Of a stretch of DNA of 64,000 nucleotides, positions 10,421 to 61,829 are shown piece by piece. A program made the position numbers and the translations under genes. Numbering within the stretch: the stretch's first letter is position 1; every line of letters starts with the position of its first letter. The stretch is from Dehalococcoidia bacterium (GTDB lineage Bacteria > Chloroflexota > Dehalococcoidia > Bin125), in assembly GCA_022826965.1 (NCBI GenBank), contig JAJDTU010000005.1, positions 620,001 to 684,000 on the forward strand. Direction: 5' to 3'. Under the pieces are notes generated by a model. It searched no databases, was not told the DNA's origin, and saw only the letters and a program-made list of their open reading frames with translations.

Positions 10421-11257
10421 ATGGCGATCGCAACCGGCACGGCAGTCGGCGGGCAGACGACGGCACGGCGGGTCGTCTTCCTCCACGCCGCAGCATTTGT
10501 ACTCGGCTTCAGCGTCGTATTCGTCGCCCTCGGCGCCCTGCTTGGCGCCCTGGGCTCGGCGTTCCAGAACGAGCTGATCTGGTTCCAGCGCGTCGCCGGC
10601 GCGCTGCTGGTCGTGCTCGGCCTGCATCTGGCCGAGGTGATCACGATCCCCTTCCTCTACCGCAGCTTCCAGGTCGGAGCGCCCGGCGGTCCCGCCGCGG
10701 AGGCGCCGGCGGAGGGAGCTTCCCGAGCGCGTGCCGCCGCCGACTACGGACGCTCCCTCGTCGTGGGCGTCGCATTTTCCGTCGGCTGGACGCCCTGCGT
10801 CGGCCCGATCCTGGCCGGCATTCTCGTGCTCGCGCTCGACTCCGCGTCGCTCTTCCAGGCCGTGATCTTGCTCATCTGCTACGCGGCCGGACTGGGTATT
10901 CCCTTCCTGCTGGTCGGCGCGACCTTCGGCGCATCCACCAAGTTCCTGCGCAAACTCAACCGCTGGATGCCGTTGATCGGTGTCGTCTCGGGAGTGCTGC
11001 TCGTCTTTGTCGGTATGTTGATCGCGCTTGACCGAGTGGTCGTCCTGAACGAGGCGCTGGGCAGCTTCGGCGTGGACATCGTCGCCGGCTCGGACGGCTC
11101 TTCGACCGAGATGCTGGACCTCAACGCCGGCTCGGCCGCGATCGCCTTCGTCGGCGGATTCGTGAGCTTCATCAGCCCGTGTGTCTTGCCGCTCGTCCCG
11201 ATCTACCTCGGCCACCTGGCCGGGATCGGCTCCGAGCAGACCATGCGCTCCGCCTAG
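10421..11257 (+). CDS. CcdA-like cytochrome c biogenesis membrane protein, circularly permuted
   Basis: A 278-residue multi-pass membrane protein. CcdA carries reducing equivalents across the membrane through two intramembrane Cys. Here the protein begins with what is normally the second segment (RRVVFLHAAAFVLGF), continues with the GWTPCVGPILAG half-site near residue 128, and ends with the canonical first helix FVSFISPCVLPLVPIYLG near residues 246-263. Both redox Cys are therefore kept but the order is rotated. The C-terminal end, GHLAGIGSEQT, matches the segment that normally leads into the N-terminal one. A TACACT six bases before the ATG could be a -10 of a leaderless transcript; a TTG at 10403 is an alternative start. 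Its stop codon overlaps that of the convergent antiporter gene. Confidence 0.82.
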   Translation: MAIATGTAVGGQTTARRVVFLHAAAFVLGFSVVFVALGALLGALGSAFQNELIWFQRVAGALLVVLGLHLAEVITIPFLYRSFQVGAPGGPAAEAPAEGASRARAAADYGRSLVVGVAFSVGWTPCVGPILAGILVLALDSASLFQAVILLICYAAGLGIPFLLVGATFGASTKFLRKLNRWMPLIGVVSGVLLVFVGMLIALDRVVVLNEALGSFGVDIVAGSDGSSTEMLDLNAGSAAIAFVGGFVSFISPCVLPLVPIYLGHLAGIGSEQTMRSA

Positions 11258-13188
11258 AACTCCGTCTCAAACTTCCGCGTTGTTCGCACATCGACGAACC
11301 ACCGGTTCCGCTTGCGCTCCTGTAGCCGGTTCCCCATCAATGCCACGGCCGAGGGTTCACCAGCCAGCGTCAGCCGGTCGTGCAGGAAGACCGTCGTGTC
11401 GCCAGCCGCGACGCTGGACTCACCGTCGCGCATGACGACCAGGACCCGGACATCACCTTCGAAGTCAATGTCTCGGAGTTCCTGGCCGTCAAACTCGCGA
11501 TTGAGCATCTCCACCTCGACCAGCCCGGAGTCGGGATCGCTGCGAGCAGCGTGCAGTCCGGGTCGCAGGACTGCCTCCTCGAGGGCCAGCGCGGTCACGT
11601 CGGACAGTGAGTACGTTTCGATCCCCAGGTGCTCAAGTTCGGTATCACGGTCGGACACCCAGGTCACGACCCTGAGCGTGGGATGAATCCGACGCATCGA
11701 CCTCGTGTAGTCGGCCACAAGGTCCGTGCGTTCCTCATCAACGATCACGGCCACCTCGGTCTGCAGCAGACGAACGCTGATCAGCGTCAAGGCGTCGAGC
11801 GGATCGCCGACGACGCTCTCAATCCCTCGCGGTCGCCATCGCTCCGCCGCGTTCGGATCGCGATCGAGCACGATCACACGGCGACCACCGGCCATGAGCC
11901 GATCGGCCAGGGTGGCAGCGAGATCTCCGCCGCCGACAACGAGCGTGTGTCCGTCTTCCTGTTCTGGAGCTCGGCCGGCAATCGTCGAGAACAAGAGCGG
12001 TGCGAGCACAGTCGTGAGCAAGGCCATGAGCAGGAGGGCGCCGTGTAGGCCATCGTCGATCAGCGCCAGATCGGCCGCGATCGCCCCAGCCGCGAGTACC
12101 AGAGACAGATTGGCGCTCAGGAGCGAGCCCCCGGCGAGGCCGGGACGGAAACCCCAGGCGGGCACCAGTCCCAGCAACGACGGCGCGAGCTTGGCTCCGA
12201 ACGCGACCAGGAGCAGCACGGGCACCAGAATCAGAGAGTCCGCGGAGTCGAACACAGCGCCCAGATCGAGCGTCGCGCCTGCGTGGATAAAGAAGATGGG
12301 CACAAAGAACCCATAACCCAGCGCATCCAGTTTGCCTCGAAGCGATGAGCCATGGCGCGGCGACACCACCGTGACGGCCAGGCCCGCGACGAACGCCCCC
12401 AGCACCATCTCGGTGCCGGCCACCTGCGATAGCGCCACGAACACGACAAGCAGCGCCAGGGACGCTCGAATCTTCAGTTGCGACGAGGTCTGGGCGAGCT
12501 CGTGCATCGTCCGAGGGATGATCGGGAAGCGACCGCTGCCGACCCGCGATAGCCAGATCATCAGGAACAGCGCCGCCGGGACTGCGAGGATGAGGAAGAT
12601 CTTCCAGCTGATGCCCTCGCGCTCCAGCGCCGAGACCACGCCGACGCCGACGATCGCGACGAATTCGAGCAGGAAGCCGCCGACCAGCAGGGACTGTCCC
12701 ATTCGACCGAGATCCGGTCGATCTTTCAACACGGGCACCACTACTCCGACCGCTGTGGCAATCAGGATGAAGAGCAGCATCGGAATCTGGTTGGAGTCGA
12801 TCAGCCCGACCTGCCGCATCAGGTGCAGCGCGACGAAGGTGAATGCGACCACCATTCCGAGCAACACCGCGCCCGAGATCAACGGATGACGAAGCGCGAC
12901 CCTGGGCACAAACCAGCGTTGCCCTGGTGATCGGCCGAGCAGGCTGAGGTTGATCTCCAGGCCGGAGAGGAACATCAAGTAGGCGAAGCCGAAGAGGGCG
13001 AGAAATGTCAGCCAGATGTGGTCTCGGTTGATGATGCCGAGCAGCGGTTCGCCGAAGATGATCCCGACCAGGACTTCCCCAACCACCGCCGGAACCAGGC
13101 CGCCGGTCAACCGCCACGCGACGAACGGCACCAACACCGCCATCACGCTGACCAGTAGGAGCGGCGTGAAATCTACCGATTCTTCCAC
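11254..13188 (-). CDS. CPA2-family cation/proton antiporter with TrkA-N and TrkA-C domains
   Basis: A 644-residue KefB/CPA2-type transporter. The first ~400 residues are hydrophobic with about a dozen membrane spans. A TrkA-N Rossmann domain (HTLVVGGGDLAATLADRL near 415, then VIVLDRDP) and a C-terminal TrkA-C-like domain follow. The family exchanges K+ or Na+ for protons, gated by nucleotides bound to the TrkA-N domain. The GTG start is preceded by GAGGA. It is convergent with the CcdA-like gene and the two stop codons overlap. Ion specificity is unknown. Confidence 0.88.
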   Translation of the reverse strand: MEESVDFTPLLLVSVMAVLVPFVAWRLTGGLVPAVVGEVLVGIIFGEPLLGIINRDHIWLTFLALFGFAYLMFLSGLEINLSLLGRSPGQRWFVPRVALRHPLISGAVLLGMVVAFTFVALHLMRQVGLIDSNQIPMLLFILIATAVGVVVPVLKDRPDLGRMGQSLLVGGFLLEFVAIVGVGVVSALEREGISWKIFLILAVPAALFLMIWLSRVGSGRFPIIPRTMHELAQTSSQLKIRASLALLVVFVALSQVAGTEMVLGAFVAGLAVTVVSPRHGSSLRGKLDALGYGFFVPIFFIHAGATLDLGAVFDSADSLILVPVLLLVAFGAKLAPSLLGLVPAWGFRPGLAGGSLLSANLSLVLAAGAIAADLALIDDGLHGALLLMALLTTVLAPLLFSTIAGRAPEQEDGHTLVVGGGDLAATLADRLMAGGRRVIVLDRDPNAAERWRPRGIESVVGDPLDALTLISVRLLQTEVAVIVDEERTDLVADYTRSMRRIHPTLRVVTWVSDRDTELEHLGIETYSLSDVTALALEEAVLRPGLHAARSDPDSGLVEVEMLNREFDGQELRDIDFEGDVRVLVVMRDGESSVAAGDTTVFLHDRLTLAGEPSAVALMGNRLQERKRNRWFVDVRTTRKFETEF

Positions 13189-13215: not shown

Positions 13216-14010
13216 TTACATATACTCCGCCAGAAACTTTAGCGAGATTCTATTGAAATCCTCGGCCGCGCTGACATTGACGGCGTGCGTCGCCGACACT
13301 CGCTCAACCCGGAAGTTGGCGGCATTGCTCTCGACCCACTCACGCGCGGGTGTGAATGCCTCTTCGCGGTCGCCGGCGATCAACAGGGTGTCAACCGGAT
13401 TGGTCGGCAATCGGTGCCGCAGCGGCGTGTGCGGAGACGTGTACATCATGGTTCGAGCGATGCCCACCGGCGTGCTGAGCAGCATGGCGTCATCGAACTC
13501 GGCGCGATGCGCCTGATCGAAGGCTCGCGCTCGGCGAGGATTGAGCGGGTGCCTCATGACCGCGTCGATTCCGCCGTCGATCATCATCTGCGCGCGTTCG
13601 CGGGCGGCCTCTGGGTTACGAATTCGTTCGAGCTCGCCAAAGGCCGAGTGGGAGTTGGTGACAACATGCGCGATCACTTCGTCGGGCCGTGACATGGCGT
13701 AGTTGAGCGTCAGGGCGGCGCCCAACGACTGACCGACGACGAACCAACGCTCGGCCTCGACCAGTTGGCGGAGCACACTGAACTGCTCCGAGTATCGATC
13801 CGGGTGATAGTCGGCTTCCTCCTGAGGAGCAGGAGACGAGCCGTGTCCGAACAGCTCAACCGTGATACTGCGGAATCCTGCGTCGTGGAACGCCGGGAGG
13901 TTGAGCAGCCAGTGCGCGCGACAGGTGAGAATGCCGTGGACGAATAGCACGGGGCGACCATCGGACGGGCCGTCAATGACGTAGTTCAGCCCGATCTGCG
14001 ATGCGTCCAC
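13216..14010 (-). CDS. Alpha/beta hydrolase
   Basis: A 264-residue single-domain alpha/beta hydrolase. It shows the oxyanion motif LFVHGIL near residue 24, ELFGHGSS, the nucleophile elbow GQSLGA near 92 (Ser), the acid Asp in LIAGDREE, and the base His in SATHAVN near the C-terminus. Start codon is GTG. It is the third gene of an operon, 35 bases after the degenerate R2-like gene, so it may act on the product of that system. The specific ester, lactone or C-C substrate is unknown. Confidence 0.85.
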   Translation of the reverse strand: MDASQIGLNYVIDGPSDGRPVLFVHGILTCRAHWLLNLPAFHDAGFRSITVELFGHGSSPAPQEEADYHPDRYSEQFSVLRQLVEAERWFVVGQSLGAALTLNYAMSRPDEVIAHVVTNSHSAFGELERIRNPEAARERAQMMIDGGIDAVMRHPLNPRRARAFDQAHRAEFDDAMLLSTPVGIARTMMYTSPHTPLRHRLPTNPVDTLLIAGDREEAFTPAREWVESNAANFRVERVSATHAVNVSAAEDFNRISLKFLAEYM

Positions 14011-14045
14011 GGCGCGGCGGTGCGTAGTCCGGAGTTCGGGTCGCG

Positions 14046-15305
14046 CTAGTCGCTGCCGGCGGTAGCGCCCTGGACGAGTGCGTCGGGATCGAGGGCCTTG
14101 AGCAGGGGATCCTGTGTGGCCAAACCGAGGATGCCGAACGTCTCGCCGATGCGGTTGAATCCGTGCTCGTGGAGTCGATGCAGGTAGTCGTGGTACTGCT
14201 TCTCGCGCAGCTTGCGCAACTCTTCGACACCGGCGTCGAGGCGTTCAACCCCATCTGCGTAGAGCACCGCCAACGCTTCCCGCTCCAGCGGCGATTGCGC
14301 CATCTCCGAGGCCAGACCGGCCTCCGCCTTGACGAGGAAGATTGGCAACTCCATCTCCGCGCGCTCGGCGTAGCGGTGGTACCACTCGAGATGCTTCAGG
14401 CCGTACTCGAGGTGGCGCTTGCTGTCTCCCGCGAGCCGGGCGAAGAGATCGCGGTCGAAGTCCGAACGGGCCCAGTCGGTGGCGCACTCAAACGCGGTCA
14501 GCTCATAGGACTTGTAGACCACGTCCAGCGCGACGATCATGTCGGTGAACGTCAAAGCGCTGTACCAGGCCTCGGAAACGTCCGAGAGCGGCGCTTTGCC
14601 GATAATCCCCGAGCCGTGCAAGGCGCGCTTGCGCAGCGACTCGACTTTGCGGCCCGCGTCGTAAACCTGTGTCGCGAGGAACAGCTTCACCTCGTGAAAG
14701 CCGTAGGAGATGTCTTCCAGCCACTTGGAGATGACTTTCTGCTCGGCGATGCCGTAGGTCGAGTAGACGGCGCAGATCTGGCCGGTCGCGCGCTCGACCT
14801 CAGGCGAGAGTTCCTCGCGGCTCTCCCAGTCGAGGTCGGTGGCCGGAATCCAGCGGTCGCGGATCGCGTCTTCGTAAAGGTCGGCGACGCCGTCGGCCCA
14901 GACTTCGGTACGTTCGTAGATGGCGTAACCAGCGGGCATGTACATGCCGGGCACCGGTCGGGTGCCGCGCGGCAGGTCGTTGCGGTAGTTCCATACGTCC
15001 GGCACGTGACCGTACGAGCCGATGTCGACATCGCTGAGCCGCATGCCGTCGTCAGAGGGCGTGGGCTTGAGGCCGGTCTCGCCCCCGTCCTCGAACATGA
15101 TGAACTGCGCCCTCGCGTACGGGTGATCGGGGTTGTCTTCCACAAACTCCAACCATTTGCTGACGCGATCCGGTTCGATCGAGATGTTGAGCACATTGTC
15201 GATCTGATGACTCAGCGCGACCGATTGCTCGACCCGCTCGATCAGTTCCGGGGACCAACCGCGGACCTGGGCGCGCATCTTTTGGGCGGGAGAGAGTGTC
15301 GGCAT
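14046..15305 (-). CDS. R2/ferritin-like protein with degenerate diiron site
   Basis: A 419-residue paralogue of the gene directly upstream. Shared landmarks are LYEDAIRDRW near residue 140, LFLATQVYDAGRKVESLRKR and LAGDSKRHLEYGL. Aligned with the upstream protein, four of six diiron ligands are gone: the helix-C ExxH reads AGRK, the helix-E Glu is Lys (VVYKS), and the helix-F Glu is Ser (DSKRH). Only the first Glu and last His remain. It is therefore probably a non-catalytic structural or regulatory partner. Both proteins sit in one operon (79-base gap). Some annotations may call it ribonucleotide reductase beta; no class I alpha subunit is nearby. Confidence 0.75.
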   Translation of the reverse strand: MPTLSPAQKMRAQVRGWSPELIERVEQSVALSHQIDNVLNISIEPDRVSKWLEFVEDNPDHPYARAQFIMFEDGGETGLKPTPSDDGMRLSDVDIGSYGHVPDVWNYRNDLPRGTRPVPGMYMPAGYAIYERTEVWADGVADLYEDAIRDRWIPATDLDWESREELSPEVERATGQICAVYSTYGIAEQKVISKWLEDISYGFHEVKLFLATQVYDAGRKVESLRKRALHGSGIIGKAPLSDVSEAWYSALTFTDMIVALDVVYKSYELTAFECATDWARSDFDRDLFARLAGDSKRHLEYGLKHLEWYHRYAERAEMELPIFLVKAEAGLASEMAQSPLEREALAVLYADGVERLDAGVEELRKLREKQYHDYLHRLHEHGFNRIGETFGILGLATQDPLLKALDPDALVQGATAGSD

Positions 15306-15384
15306 CAGGTGTTCCCGTGTGTTTCAGGCCGTACGGCCTTCTGAAGGCCCAGGGGTGTCCGCAGCTGTTCCGGATCCTCCCGGG

Positions 15385-16419
15385 CTAGACCGTAATCAGC
15401 TCGCGCATCGCGGGAGCCATGCGATCGATCCGGTCTCCGAGACCGACCACCTGGAGACGGTGGTAGTACTCGTTGATCTGCTTCTTGCGCATCAACAGGA
15501 GCAGGTTGTAGCCCTCGTCGATGTGCTCAATGCCGCCGCCGGCCAGGACGGCGAGGGCTTCGCCCGTGATCGGGTTGGTCGTCAGCCCGGCCTGCGTGTT
15601 CTGGACGGTTTCGTTGGCGTCGAGATAGTGATGCAGTTCTTCCTTGCGCCACGGCTGGGTCTCGACGGTGTACTTGGTGTGGGTGACGCCGAATGCGAGG
15701 TGGCGCGATTCGTCCTGTGCTGAGAGACGGAACATGCGCTTTTCGGCCTCGTTCTGGCCAATCAGTTCACCCATGCGGAAGAGCGACTGCACCAGACCCT
15801 CGGCGAAGAGATGGAGCACCGCTGTCATCTCCGTGAAATCGTCGATCGACAGCAGTCCAACGGCTCCGAAGCCGGCCGGCGACATGCCGCCGCCATTGAC
15901 GAGCACCCGCTTACGGAAGACGTCGAGGTGACGTGCCTCGTCCATGAGCTGTGTGCCGAGGAAGAGCTGCGATTCGAAGTAGTCGGGCTGGACCGTCTCG
16001 AGGAAGCGGCCCGGAACGTCGCCGGCGATGAACTCGACCTGGGTGAGGAAAGTGCACAACGTGCACATGGCCTTTTCGATGTCGTCGGGCTGGTCGCCGA
16101 TCGTGTCCCAGGGGATATCGCGGGCCGAGGACCACTGGCGCTGCAGGGCTTCCTCGTAGAGCAGCATCGCAGACTCGGACCACACGTCGCCCTTGTCCCG
16201 GTACTGTCGCGCGTGAGTATTGGAGCGCGGGTCGGCCTCGACCCCGCGCGGCGCGAACGACCGCCGGTCCCCCTCGTCAACGGCATCGACGCCGGCCATG
16301 CGCTGGTTGATTGACTGCAGCGTGATGCCCTTGCGGCCGACCTGGATGTCGAACTCGTCGTCGGTCTCCAGATTCAACCAGCCGAGGTCGAGGCCCGGAT
16401 TCTCAATCGCGGTGACCAT
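15385..16419 (-). CDS. R2-like ferritin-superfamily diiron oxygenase/oxidase, intact site
   Basis: A 344-residue protein with a complete set of candidate diiron ligands: Glu in LTQVEF (near 127), ExxH in DEARHL (near 159-162), Glu in LFAEGL (near 205) and ExxH in DESRHL (near 236-239). The spacing is that of the R2/rubrerythrin-like four-helix bundle. Upstream, LLYEEALQRQW and ARDIPWD form a motif shared with its neighbour. It probably activates O2 at a diiron or Mn/Fe centre. AGGAA precedes the ATG by seven bases. It is the first gene of an operon with its degenerate paralogue and an alpha/beta hydrolase. Substrate unknown; no reductase or ferredoxin is adjacent. Confidence 0.8.
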   Translation of the reverse strand: MVTAIENPGLDLGWLNLETDDEFDIQVGRKGITLQSINQRMAGVDAVDEGDRRSFAPRGVEADPRSNTHARQYRDKGDVWSESAMLLYEEALQRQWSSARDIPWDTIGDQPDDIEKAMCTLCTFLTQVEFIAGDVPGRFLETVQPDYFESQLFLGTQLMDEARHLDVFRKRVLVNGGGMSPAGFGAVGLLSIDDFTEMTAVLHLFAEGLVQSLFRMGELIGQNEAEKRMFRLSAQDESRHLAFGVTHTKYTVETQPWRKEELHHYLDANETVQNTQAGLTTNPITGEALAVLAGGGIEHIDEGYNLLLLMRKKQINEYYHRLQVVGLGDRIDRMAPAMRELITV

Positions 16420-16616: not shown

Positions 16617-18815
16617 TCACTGCGTCGCGAGGGGATCGAAGTTGGCGCGCAGGTAGTTGACCAGGTCCCAGCGCTCCTGGTCCGACAACTGCGGCGACCA
16701 GCCGGGCATCCCCGTGCCGCGAATGCCATCCGTGATCCACGCGTACAGCACCCCGTCGGGATGGAACGGGACATGAATGGTGAAGTTGGCCGGTGGGGCG
16801 GGCAACGAGTAGGCCAGCGGACCGTCGCCCGCGCCGGTGCCTCCGTGACAGGAAACGCAGTTCGCTGCAAACAGGGCGGAGCCTCGTTCGACGGAATCCG
16901 CCGTCAACGCAACCGGATTGGCCAGCGTTCGTCCGGGCTCGACATGCAACCCGGTCAGCAAGACGACCGCCACGATCAAACCAAGTACTGCACCGACGAA
17001 CGCGCCGTCTGCGACGCGCGGGCCGAAGCGGTCCCTGAGGTTGGGCCGATTGATCCAGGCCAGGCCGCCAACGATCAGCGCCCAGAGCGCGCCGACTCCG
17101 TTCCAGTCCATCTGGGTCAAGGGAAGCGCGAGCGCGCCCCCGCGATCGGCCGCGAACGGCGATGCCTGGTACCCGGACTCCACGCTCGTCCTCACGGCTG
17201 CCACGAGGTCGTCGCCCGAGGCCCGGCGCAGTTCCATCTCGACGGTCCAGTCCCCGGGCAAGCCGAAGTAGGCGCCCTCGAGTTGGAAGCGCCCGTCCCC
17301 GATTGGGGTCGTGTTGACAGTCACCGGACCGACCGCCGCATCCTGATAGCGGAAGCGCAGCAGCAGATCCTCCACCGGATTATCCGAGGGTGCATCGACC
17401 GTCGCCGTCCAGGTGTTGAAACCGACCAGATTAGGCGAGATCTCCAGCGACACCACGACATCACCGCGCGCAACCGTCTCAACGACGGTGTTGTCCTTCT
17501 GTTCTATCTCCGGTTGGGCGCTGGCGGGAGAAGGCAACTGGGTCAGCACGGCGGAGACGACGATCACAACCAGTCCCAGTGCCGTTTCGATGCGCATCAT
17601 CCTGCGGAAGCGGCGGGCCAGATCCTCGTCCTGTCCATCGGAGTCGGCGTCACGCGGACGAAGCAGGAACGCGTTCGTGGCGGCCGCCGAGAACAGGGCC
17701 AGCAGGACGACAACTTTGACGATGAAGACCAGGCCCCAGTCCGTGTCGACCAGCCCGCCGACATCGGGGATCTGAATCAGCGCCGAAAGCAGTCCGGCGG
17801 CGAACAGCACGGGCACCGACGCCGCCGCCACGAGCGAGAAACGCCTGACCGCTTCGACGCGGACCTCTGGCCTGTCTTTCAGGGCCAGGATCAGGCTCGC
17901 CAGACCGCCGATCCAGACCGCGACCAACGAGAGGTGCAGGGCATCGAACAACGTTCCCCAGATCCAGCCGGAGCCGATCGCTGCGCCGTGCGAGACCGCC
18001 GACGTCGAAGCCAACCAGGCCAACGCCAGAACCGCCAACAGGCGCAGCAACATCCGAGAATCAACGCTTCGCGGCCAGATCAGGCGAGCGCTGAGCGCCA
18101 GCGCCGCCAGGATCAGCGCGTACCAGCGTTGCTGCAACCAGAGACCGTTGCGCGAGTCGAACAGCACGTCGCCGAGAAATCCGATGTCGCCCAGGCGCAG
18201 CGCTCCCGCGATCGACTCGTAGGCCGTCCCCGCAATCGCGATCGCCAGCGTTCCCGCCATCAACGGCAGCAACGTCGGCAACGGCGACGGTCGCAGCAGC
18301 CAACCGATCAGCACCGCGCCCACAAACAGCACCAACGCGGCGAGACCAATTGCTTTCACCACCGCATCCGCGGCAACTGGCGGTCCGGGACGGTCGAGGT
18401 CAATGGCGATTCCGCTGCCCGACGGCGCGGAGCCGTCCTGGTTCAGCACCGAGAAGACGTACGAGCCGGTCCACGTGTGACCGTCAACCTCGGACAACGT
18501 TTCCCAGACGACCGTGTAGACCCCGGGCTCAAGTTTGAGCACGCGGACGCCCATCTGGGTGGGTACTTCGTCCGAAAACTCGGTCTCGCCGATATCGCGC
18601 CGCTGTGCCGCGCTGTCGAGTACCTGTACCGAGCTGTGGGTGCGCTGCAACTGTTCGGTCATGAACAGCGTCACCAGGGTCGGCGACTCACGTAGCGAGG
18701 CATTGACGGGCGGATCGGCGCGGGCCAACAGCGCGTGCGCGTCGGCGCTCTGCGGCCAGAGCCAGACCGCGAGCACGGCAGCCACGGCGAGGAGCACGGC
18801 GACTGCGCGTGTCAT
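16617..18815 (-). CDS. CopC-CopD-cytochrome c fusion protein
   Basis: A 732-residue envelope protein. Order: signal peptide ending ADA; CopC domain whose first mature residue is His and which keeps the DGH motif (copper ligands); eight or so CopD membrane helices (about 150-420); a beta-rich periplasmic domain (about 435-545); two more helices; and a C-terminal cytochrome c domain with CVSCH and a candidate axial Met in GTGMPGW. The combination links copper uptake or sensing with electron transfer. It is the last gene of a minus-strand operon and overlaps the upstream propeller gene by four bases (ATGA). Confidence 0.88.
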   Translation of the reverse strand: MTRAVAVLLAVAAVLAVWLWPQSADAHALLARADPPVNASLRESPTLVTLFMTEQLQRTHSSVQVLDSAAQRRDIGETEFSDEVPTQMGVRVLKLEPGVYTVVWETLSEVDGHTWTGSYVFSVLNQDGSAPSGSGIAIDLDRPGPPVAADAVVKAIGLAALVLFVGAVLIGWLLRPSPLPTLLPLMAGTLAIAIAGTAYESIAGALRLGDIGFLGDVLFDSRNGLWLQQRWYALILAALALSARLIWPRSVDSRMLLRLLAVLALAWLASTSAVSHGAAIGSGWIWGTLFDALHLSLVAVWIGGLASLILALKDRPEVRVEAVRRFSLVAAASVPVLFAAGLLSALIQIPDVGGLVDTDWGLVFIVKVVVLLALFSAAATNAFLLRPRDADSDGQDEDLARRFRRMMRIETALGLVVIVVSAVLTQLPSPASAQPEIEQKDNTVVETVARGDVVVSLEISPNLVGFNTWTATVDAPSDNPVEDLLLRFRYQDAAVGPVTVNTTPIGDGRFQLEGAYFGLPGDWTVEMELRRASGDDLVAAVRTSVESGYQASPFAADRGGALALPLTQMDWNGVGALWALIVGGLAWINRPNLRDRFGPRVADGAFVGAVLGLIVAVVLLTGLHVEPGRTLANPVALTADSVERGSALFAANCVSCHGGTGAGDGPLAYSLPAPPANFTIHVPFHPDGVLYAWITDGIRGTGMPGWSPQLSDQERWDLVNYLRANFDPLATQ

Positions 18816-22127: not shown

Positions 22128-23033
22128 ATGGGAATGCTTGATGGCCGGGTGGCGATCATCACCGGCGCGGGTCGTGGGATCGGGGCCGAGACGGCCAAGT
22201 TGTTCGCCTCCGAGGGCGCCAAGGTCGTCGTCAACGACCTCGGCGGCGCGGTCGACGGCTCTGGCGCTGCGGCTGCGCCGGCCGATGAGGTGGTCGCCGC
22301 GATCCGCGACGCCGGCGGTGAAGCGGTAGCCAACTACTCGTCGGTCGCCGACTACGACGCGGCCGAGGGCATCGTCAAGGCGGCGCTGGACAACTTCGGC
22401 GACCTCGACATCGTCGTCAACACAGCCGGCATCCTGCGCGACCGGATGGTCTTCAACATGACCGAAGCCGAGTGGGACGCCGTGCTCGACGTCCACCTCA
22501 AGGGTCACTTCAACCTGACCAAGTACGCCTCAATCCACTGGCGTTCCGAGCGCAAGGGTCACTACCGACTGATCAACTTCTCCTCGGTCTCCGGCATCTT
22601 CGGCGCGCCCGGCCAGCCCAACTACGCCGCGGCAAAGATGGGCATCGTCGGCTTCACCTACAGCTGCGCCAACGCCCTCGGCCGCTACGGCGCGACCGCC
22701 AACGCGATCTCGCCCGGAGCCTCAACTCGCATGACCGACACCGTGCCCGAGGAACGCCGCCGCGCCGGCAGCGACATCGGCGACTCGAGCGAAGAGGACC
22801 CGCAGCGCTCACCGGCCAACGTCGCCGTGCCGCTGGTCTACATCGCCTCCGAGCAATCCGACTGGCTCAACGGCCAGATCGTCGGGGCATCGGGCTACGA
22901 GCTACAGCTCTTCAACAAACCCGCCGTGATCCGCCAGGTCCGCGGAACCGAGCGCTGGACAACTGAGGGCGCAGCCCAGCAGATCGAGGAACTGTTCAAG
23001 CCCGCCGTCGGCGGCGGCGGCTTCTACGGATAG
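22128..23033 (+). CDS. SDR, MFE-2 dehydrogenase-like, paralogue 1
   Basis: A 301-residue short-chain dehydrogenase. The motif TGAGRGIG is near residues 12-19, the extended VVVNDLGG strand is typical of the 3-hydroxyacyl-CoA dehydrogenase unit of multifunctional enzyme 2, the NAG motif reads NTAG, and the catalytic Ser-Tyr-Lys lie in FSSVSG and NYAAAKMG. About 40 residues beyond a minimal SDR follow the active site. Likely role: NAD-dependent oxidation of a 3-hydroxyacyl-CoA or similar alcohol. The next gene is a close paralogue, separated only by a repeat element. ATG follows GAGAGGAATCACAC. Confidence 0.88.
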   Translation: MGMLDGRVAIITGAGRGIGAETAKLFASEGAKVVVNDLGGAVDGSGAAAAPADEVVAAIRDAGGEAVANYSSVADYDAAEGIVKAALDNFGDLDIVVNTAGILRDRMVFNMTEAEWDAVLDVHLKGHFNLTKYASIHWRSERKGHYRLINFSSVSGIFGAPGQPNYAAAKMGIVGFTYSCANALGRYGATANAISPGASTRMTDTVPEERRRAGSDIGDSSEEDPQRSPANVAVPLVYIASEQSDWLNGQIVGASGYELQLFNKPAVIRQVRGTERWTTEGAAQQIEELFKPAVGGGGFYG

Positions 23034-23158: not shown

Positions 23159-24064
23159 ATGGGAATGCTTGACAATCGCGTCGCAATCGTGACCGGTGCG
23201 GGACGCGGAATCGGTTCCGAAGTCGCCAAGCTGTTCGCCGCCAACGGCGCCAGCGTCGTCGTCAACGACCTCGGCGGCGCGGTCGACGGCACCGGCGGCG
23301 AGGCCGGCCCGGCCGACGAGACCGTCGCGACGATCCGCGACGCCGGCGGCAACGCCGTCGCCAACTACACGTCGGTCGCCGACTACGACGGCGCCGAGGG
23401 CATCATCCAGCAGGCGCTGGACGAGTACGGACGCCTCGACATCCTGGTCAACGTCGCCGGCAACCTGCGCGACCGGATGGTCTTCAACATGACCGAAGCG
23501 GAATGGGACGCGGTCGTCGCGGTGCACATGAAGGGCACATTCAACACCACCAAGTACGCCTCGATCTACTGGCGCGCCAATCGCGAGGGTCACTACCGGC
23601 TGATCAACTTCACCTCCGGCTCCGGCCTGCACGGAGCCCCGGGACAGCCCAACTATGCGGCCGCCAAGCTCGGCATCGTCGGCTTCACCTACAGCTGCGC
23701 CAATGCGCTGGGACGCTACGGCGTCACCTCCAACGCCATCGGCCCGGGCGCGTCCACGCGGATGACCGACACCGTGCCCACCGATCGCCGCTCGCGCGGC
23801 TTCGACGAGGACTCAGAGACGACCGTCGACCCGCGCCGCTCGCCGGCCAACGTCGCCGTGCCGATCGTCTACATGGCCTCTGAGGCCTCCGACTGGCTCA
23901 ACGGCCAGGTGATCCAGGCGATGGGCTACGACATCGGCCTCTACAACCAGTACGAGATCATCCGCAACCTCTCGAGCAACGAGCGCTGGACCGTTGAGCG
24001 GGCCGGCGAAGAGATCGAGCGGGTGTTCAAACCGGCCATCGAAGGCAGCCGCCTCTTCGGCTAA
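23159..24064 (+). CDS. SDR, MFE-2 dehydrogenase-like, paralogue 2
   Basis: A 301-residue paralogue of the preceding gene, alignable end to end without gaps and about three quarters identical by eye. It keeps TGAGRGIG, NVAG, the catalytic Ser in FTSGSG and the Tyr/Lys in NYAAAKLG. The two differ most after residue 205. Tandem duplication with divergence suggests related substrates or a heteromer. GTAAGGAAACAACATC precedes the ATG. A clear terminator lies 29 bases downstream. Confidence 0.88.
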   Translation: MGMLDNRVAIVTGAGRGIGSEVAKLFAANGASVVVNDLGGAVDGTGGEAGPADETVATIRDAGGNAVANYTSVADYDGAEGIIQQALDEYGRLDILVNVAGNLRDRMVFNMTEAEWDAVVAVHMKGTFNTTKYASIYWRANREGHYRLINFTSGSGLHGAPGQPNYAAAKLGIVGFTYSCANALGRYGVTSNAIGPGASTRMTDTVPTDRRSRGFDEDSETTVDPRRSPANVAVPIVYMASEASDWLNGQVIQAMGYDIGLYNQYEIIRNLSSNERWTVERAGEEIERVFKPAIEGSRLFG

Positions 24065-61022: not shown

Positions 61023-61829
61023 TCAACCGTTCGGATAGACATCCAGCAACTCAAACCGTGGGCCGTCCTTACAGCAGAGCTTGACGCCCCGCTTGGTGAA
61101 CACGGCACAGCCGTAGCAAATGCCCGTTCCGCAGGCCATCTCGGTCTCCATCAGGATCTGCACCGGACGGTTCATGCCGTCGCGCCGGACGATCGGCGAC
61201 ATCGCGCGGAACATGGGCACGGGACCGCAGGCGAAGGATTGGTCCGCCCAGGAGAGATACTCGGCGAACAGGTCGGTGACGAATCCTGCCGTCCCCATCG
61301 AGCCGTCCTCCGTTGAGACCTGGTACTCGACCTGGGGCGGCAGCAGCTCGGCGGGATAGACGCCGTCGGCGCTGCGTGCGCCAAAGCAAAGCACAATCGA
61401 CCGCGAGCGAGACGAACTCTCCGACTCCGCGTCGGCCAGCGCGACCAACGGCGCGATGCCGACACCGCCGCCAACCAGCAGCAGGTTCGAGGCTGATCGT
61501 CGCACATCAAACCCGCGACCGAGCGGTCCGGTCATCCATACGCGCTGGCCCGGCTGCGTCAGCGCCATCTGCTCAGTCACGCGGCCAATTACGGTGTAGA
61601 GCAACGCAAACTGGCGCTCGGCGTCGCGAGGCGATGTGTAGCGGAACCGGTAGTACGAGAACGCGCGCGGCAGCAGTGGATCGAGCGTCCCCTGCCCCGA
61701 TCCGGGATCGACCATCACGAACTGGCCGGGTCGCGCATGTTGAGTCAACGGCGGGGCGTCGTACCAGGTGACGAACGTGCCGGGATAAATCTCCTCGGTC
61801 TCGATCACGCGGGCGGCGACTCGGCGCAC
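61023..61829 (-). CDS. pyrK: Dihydroorotate dehydrogenase electron-transfer subunit
   Basis: A 268-residue PyrK-type flavoprotein. The FAD-binding region has RAFSYYRFRYTSP (near 56), the NAD-binding motif is LLLVGGGVGIAPLVALAD (near 117), and the C-terminal [2Fe-2S] Cys are in CGTGICYGCAVFTK and LCCKDGP. It passes electrons from dihydroorotate dehydrogenase B to NAD. The GTG start lies 20 bases after carB, with GGAAG eight bases upstream. No pyrD follows directly, so that catalytic subunit must be elsewhere. Confidence 0.9.
   Translation of the reverse strand: MRRVAARVIETEEIYPGTFVTWYDAPPLTQHARPGQFVMVDPGSGQGTLDPLLPRAFSYYRFRYTSPRDAERQFALLYTVIGRVTEQMALTQPGQRVWMTGPLGRGFDVRRSASNLLLVGGGVGIAPLVALADAESESSSRSRSIVLCFGARSADGVYPAELLPPQVEYQVSTEDGSMGTAGFVTDLFAEYLSWADQSFACGPVPMFRAMSPIVRRDGMNRPVQILMETEMACGTGICYGCAVFTKRGVKLCCKDGPRFELLDVYPNG

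Follow-up and report, generated by a model that had tools for sequence, protein, structure and literature searches.

PaaA and PaaC have the same fold at 17% sequence identity and form heterodimers in which only PaaA is catalytic; PaaA has the iron site, PaaC is structural, and the small protein PaaB binds both (PMC4498308). In the multicomponent monooxygenases, such as sMMO and the toluene/phenol hydroxylases, an active alpha subunit is accompanied by a degenerate homologous beta subunit. PaaA has been reported to be insoluble or inactive without PaaC. R2lox and R2 proteins are homodimers.

Here we analysed a window of 64,000 nucleotides (the whole stretch of DNA presented above) from a Dehalococcoidia bacterium, in which an intact R2-like diiron protein (alpha) is encoded next to a degenerate R2-like paralogue (beta). 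Like PaaA/PaaC, the pair combines a putatively catalytic diiron subunit with a low-identity homologue (27% identity here), the partner in Paa being metal-free. Unlike PaaA/PaaC, neither the window proteins nor the genome gave a PF05138 match, and the third ligand, Asp126 in PaaA, is Glu in alpha. Membership of the Paa family was ruled out on the missing PF05138 match. The pair also resembles the multicomponent monooxygenases in having a putatively active alpha and a degenerate homologous beta, with weak profile and fold similarity. However, alpha has about 340 aa, whereas theirs have about 510-527 aa, and only 43 residues lie between the first His ligand of alpha and Glu3. As the genome has no match to PF02332 or PF02406 (MmoB/DmpM) and no dedicated FNR-type reductase, membership of this group was rejected as well, in agreement with the initial annotation, which had likened the pair to these enzymes while setting it apart from them. 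No curated Pfam or NCBIfam family describes the alpha-beta pair, and it was not found described in a literature term search that covered few subscription journals. The system, which in many lineages includes a small third protein (gamma), thus appears to be undescribed, as had been suggested.

Gene organization and metal-site residues of the locus

The open reading frames of alpha, beta, and an alpha/beta hydrolase are arranged head to tail on the minus strand of the window. Alpha (344 aa; 15385..16419), recognized by its reading frame and ligands, is followed after 79 bp by beta (419 aa; 14046..15305), recognized by its reading frame and alignment, and after a further 35 bp by the hydrolase (264 aa; 13216..14010; PF00561, E 9.5e-17). 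BLASTP aligned alpha with beta at 27% identity across 283 aa (E 2e-31), and, judged from the sequences, their homology is beyond chance. Both contain the motifs LFLxTQxxD and RKRxL, and scaffold residues W80, Y88, E89, W96, W104, E115, R163, RKR, D236, and R239 are conserved in alpha and beta.

The ligands of alpha are E129, E161xxH164, E207, and E237xxH240. Their codons span 15700..16035 on the minus strand (E129, 16033-16035; E161, 15937-15939; H164, 15928-15930; E207, 15799-15801; E237, 15709-15711; H240, 15700-15702), and all six residues are invariant in the 27-row alpha alignment A1. At the same sites, beta has G185 (placed by multiple alignment), A217, K220, K265, S295, and H298. By alignment with alpha, the degenerate codons occupy 14412..14657 on the minus strand (A217, 14655-14657; K220, 14646-14648; K265, 14511-14513; S295, 14421-14423; H298, 14412-14414), and the final His, H298, is the one ligand clearly left. 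The initial annotation had described two homologous R2-like proteins in tandem, sharing these two motifs, the first retaining E, ExxH, E, ExxH and the second with A and K for ExxH, K for the third Glu, and S for the fourth. This description was confirmed in full.

A gene for a CopC-CopD-cytochrome c fusion (732 aa; 16617-18815), also on the minus strand, precedes alpha by 197 bp, and in loci L002 and L013 alpha is likewise preceded by genes of similar size. A gene for a Na+/H+ antiporter with TrkA domains (11254-13188, same strand) starts 27 bp past the hydrolase; its place is occupied in L002 by a 644-aa gene. The window also contains tandem duplicate SDR-like genes (301 aa; 22128-23033 and 23159-24064) with almost identical N-termini.

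Distribution and co-divergence of alpha and beta

The genome of the window (3.0 Mb), whose near relatives are Dehalococcoidia, carries three alpha-beta pairs: that of the window and those at C6:104032-106300 and C14:307703-309847. A contig scan of genomes identified 37 loci, in Chloroflexota only and in two ortholog groups. Alpha matches were found in 13 of 301 genomes across the phylum, and beta profile matches in 115 of the 393 genomes of the class. Plasmid searches returned just remote lone ferritin-like proteins. The carriers form a large group of bacteria, mostly uncultivated, marine and sponge-associated. In adjacent pairs (n = 75), alpha is upstream with a median gap of about 80 bp. The intact/degenerate arrangement is far beyond chance because it recurs in dozens of genomes. 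Some loci are more elaborate: the contig of L131 (G476:C191) carries two full alpha-beta-gamma operons that are separated by about 10 kb, a luciferase-type gene lying in the interval, and in L146 (6309-10332) a single beta and a single gamma come after two tandem alphas.

In a 120-row tree, 61 of the 62 betas formed a single clade (SH-aLRT 100) opposite the alphas (93), the long-branched pair L084 being the only one unresolved. The branching order of the beta clade mirrors that of alpha. The distances within alpha and beta correlated with r = 0.886 over 44 pairs (shuffle maximum 0.16), a value to which shared species history contributes. The three paralogous pairs within the genome of the window stay matched by locus, so the matching of the pairs is not explained by species history. 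The dN/dS of beta, about 0.06-0.22, indicates purifying selection, although beta evolves faster than alpha; together with conservation across the class, this value rules out a recent pseudogene. Thus, the betas form a single ancient clade that is maintained by purifying selection and has co-diverged with alpha. No beta among the 89 compared has a full ligand set, which supports the earlier proposal of a dedicated degenerate partner. Intact and degenerate homologues co-occur and co-evolve, as would subunits of a dimetal oxygenase that includes a pseudoenzyme.

Alpha and beta have co-evolved for a very long time and therefore probably belong to one enzyme complex. We consider it reasonably likely that they assemble into a heteromeric non-heme dimetal oxygenase in which beta is a pseudoenzyme. 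Operon pairing is not universal, since some alphas have no adjacent beta (L077, L080, and L081) and beta-gamma units without an adjacent alpha are common (L078, L129, L133, L134, L136, L143, L145, L150, L160, and L161). These cases, together with the homodimeric nature of the nearest folds, R2lox and R2, are what would be expected if alpha alone were a homodimeric R2lox-like oxidase and beta a separate non-metal protein (for example a substrate carrier, regulator, or chaperone) linked to it by no more than co-transcription. However, two genomes with a lone alpha (G291 and G277) carry beta elsewhere, and the co-divergence of the pair and its fixed gene order favour direct interaction, which makes a solitary alpha unlikely.

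Comparison of alpha with R2, R2lox, and related proteins

Neither alpha nor beta had a Pfam match, even at E ≤ 1. Among the 86 alphas compared, the ligand set EEHEEH is present in all 85 complete sequences; the sole exception, L162, has a broken frame. Searched with the profile of 27 alphas, the PDB gave the VlmB homologue/protein 60 (1.9e-12), R2lox (1.6e-11), and sMMO alpha (1.9e-4). The AF2 model of alpha (pLDDT 75, pTM 0.77; single chain, shallow alignment) found its best PDB fold matches in R2lox, and R2 folds were also matched; confidence in this model and in that of beta is medium, and their fold matches are moderate (TM-score about 0.4-0.65).

Alpha resembles R2lox in its six ligands, E, ExxH, E, ExxH, which are of the same types and in the same order. 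In contrast to alpha, R2lox stands alone, and alpha lacks the Val and Tyr of the R2lox ether crosslink. Of 83 alphas, 82 have Ala at the Val position (E1+3) and 82 have Leu/Met at the Tyr position (E3-5). Alpha matched the NCBIfam R2lox model only weakly (34.5 bits, 1.2e-8; equivalog cut-off 194), and this score and the missing crosslink residues rule out R2lox membership. The radical Tyr of class Ia/b RNR R2, four residues past the first His, was not found either, the position being Phe in 82 of 83 alphas; class Ic RNR R2 likewise has no radical Tyr.

The best PDB profile match, the aldehyde-deformylating VlmB homologue/protein 60 of Kitasatospora setae (PDB 6d9f), shares the DEARH and E...DExRH motifs. 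Its identity with alpha is 18-19%, and its spacing from the first ExxH to Glu3 is longer by about 20 residues. We know of no beta partner for this protein.

The nearest profiles include R2lox and, as a sub-threshold match only, RNR R2 (PF00268), and they would also accord with a function other than oxygenation, namely that of a ferritin-superfamily protein serving as radical or oxidase cofactor, as ferroxidase, or in oxidative stress. We regard such a function as quite unlikely, as the residues at the radical and crosslink sites argue against it, and so do the catabolic genes near the pair in other lineages (SDR, luciferase-type monooxygenase, thiolase, and ChsH2-like genes), none of them universal. 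The presence of three divergent copies per genome also speaks against it and suggests substrate diversification.

Loss of the metal site in beta

At most two of the six ligands are retained in each of the 89 betas. None of them has Glu3 or Glu4, Glu1 is retained in one and Glu2 in one, and the His positions are partly retained. The residues that replace the ligands are uniform inside each beta subfamily: GAKKSH in that of the window's beta, and ALHDRM, NAHDKH, QQHTLH, AAHGKH, and others elsewhere. K220 and K265 are invariant in the window's subfamily, and the positions of D294 and H298 are widely conserved among betas. E188 lies one helical turn past G185. That beta is itself catalytic, by other chemistry or with a metal bound through other residues (e.g., E188, H298, and acidic neighbours), is very improbable: purifying selection, the conserved H298 and D294 positions, and the invariant replacing lysines would agree with it, but E188 is found in fewer than half of the betas, and the replacements vary between subfamilies and therefore fit loss of the site rather than one new site.

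Ahead of the part shared with alpha, beta has an extra N-terminal helical region of ~65 aa (residues 1-65). The beta of L078 (9496-10875) carries two copies of a ~45-aa motif, KAQEKGWPLDLVxxAL...GVTxEQAxxYL, possibly a small helical interaction domain. The AF2 model of beta (pLDDT 78, pTM 0.71; single chain, shallow alignment) matched the folds of R2, R2lox, and sMMO beta. Comparison of the beta profile with the PDB gave no credible match.

A small third component, gamma

In many other lineages, the gene after beta encodes gamma, a protein of about 145 aa to which no Pfam family matched. Mostly, no more than about 60 bp separate beta from gamma, and this also holds for units without a neighbouring alpha. 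Gamma matches occur in 112 of the 393 genomes of the class, and 109 of these also have beta; three genomes have gamma only and six beta only (Fisher p about 2e-85, which overstates independence because the genomes are related). The genome of the window has one gamma, at G000:C14:248466-248897 (L125:9436-9894), unlinked and far from all three pairs. Of the neighbours tested, one is PIG-L and two lack a Pfam match. For gamma, two SCP2 entries (E about 1) give no more than a hint of a sterol-carrier-like fold, and PF02036 (SCP2) does not match. The earlier statement that a coupling protein is missing holds insofar as the genome has no PF02406 match, but it needs amending because a conserved small protein follows beta elsewhere and is present, unlinked, in this genome.

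Hydrolase, neighbouring genes, and electron supply

The hydrolase is nearest to the NCBIfam models MenH and PcaD, both far below cut-off. It is found beside the pair in the close ortholog group only and is absent from L013 (sister genus, 88% alpha identity) and from beside all other pairs. A general link between the hydrolase and the intact/degenerate pair, as initially supposed, was therefore not borne out; this restriction rules it out as a core component, and it is an accessory gene.

The genome gave no match to PF02332 (at E ≤ 1), PF02406, or PF05138. Its one PF00175 (NAD_binding_1) match, at 61023-61829 of the window, is probably PyrK because it adjoins CarB. No reductase is linked to the pair and no PaaE-type reductase was found, consistent with the earlier view that a dedicated reductase is missing. 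Neighbour clustering identified no universal electron-transfer partner. In other lineages, ferredoxin and a zinc-ribbon protein occur among the neighbours, as do SDRs, luciferase-type monooxygenases, thiolase, and ChsH2-like OB proteins; none is universal.

In two genomes from another family of the phylum, a gene for a 100-aa zinc-ribbon protein (PF09723) lies between beta and gamma (L085:4360-4662 and L086:6062-6364); its product might act as a partner resembling rubredoxin. At L084:11200-12847, gamma is directly followed by genes for thiolase and ChsH2-like OB-fold proteins, which hint at substrates of the acyl-CoA or steroid type for that lineage. Genes for an iron/B12-type ABC transporter, a cobalamin adenosyltransferase, and a rhomboid protein adjoin one beta-gamma lineage and look incidental.

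Working model of the alpha-beta-gamma system

Our best-supported reading takes PaaA/PaaC/PaaB as a working model, a similar mode of operation having probably been reached here from the R2/R2lox side. Alpha would bind an Fe/Fe (or Mn/Fe) cluster through E129, E161, H164, E207, E237, and H240, activate O2, and oxidize an organic, probably hydrophobic, substrate. Beta would have arisen by an old duplication of alpha, keeping the four-helix scaffold and its motifs while the metal site was filled by other residues (here two lysines). Most likely it replaces the second protomer of the R2-type dimer, where it would stabilize alpha and dock gamma and an electron donor. Gamma, as a small subunit or carrier, would act in trans in the genome of the window. 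The hydrolase would have joined the operon in the close ortholog group, where the product may be its substrate.

A broader proposal, which we offer tentatively, is that alpha, the pseudoenzyme beta, and gamma constitute a three-part dimetal oxygenase family from the R2/R2lox side. The catalytic/structural heterodimer would then have been invented independently of the multicomponent monooxygenases and Paa, without their reductase, and in Chloroflexota the family may have diversified into several parallel copies per genome that serve different refractory substrates.

It has been proposed that SAR202 and related Dehalococcoidia live on refractory dissolved organic matter by means of expanded oxidative enzyme families. 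A term search of two papers on this subject (PMC6946804, PMC10444878) returned no mention of a diiron or ferritin-like oxygenase. If real, the system would add a widespread oxygenase to the oxidative repertoire of SAR202/Dehalococcoidia. It would also provide a further example from nature with which to study why metal-free partner subunits arise in diiron oxygenases, and the deep set of co-diverged pairs would make the contacts at their interface predictable and testable.
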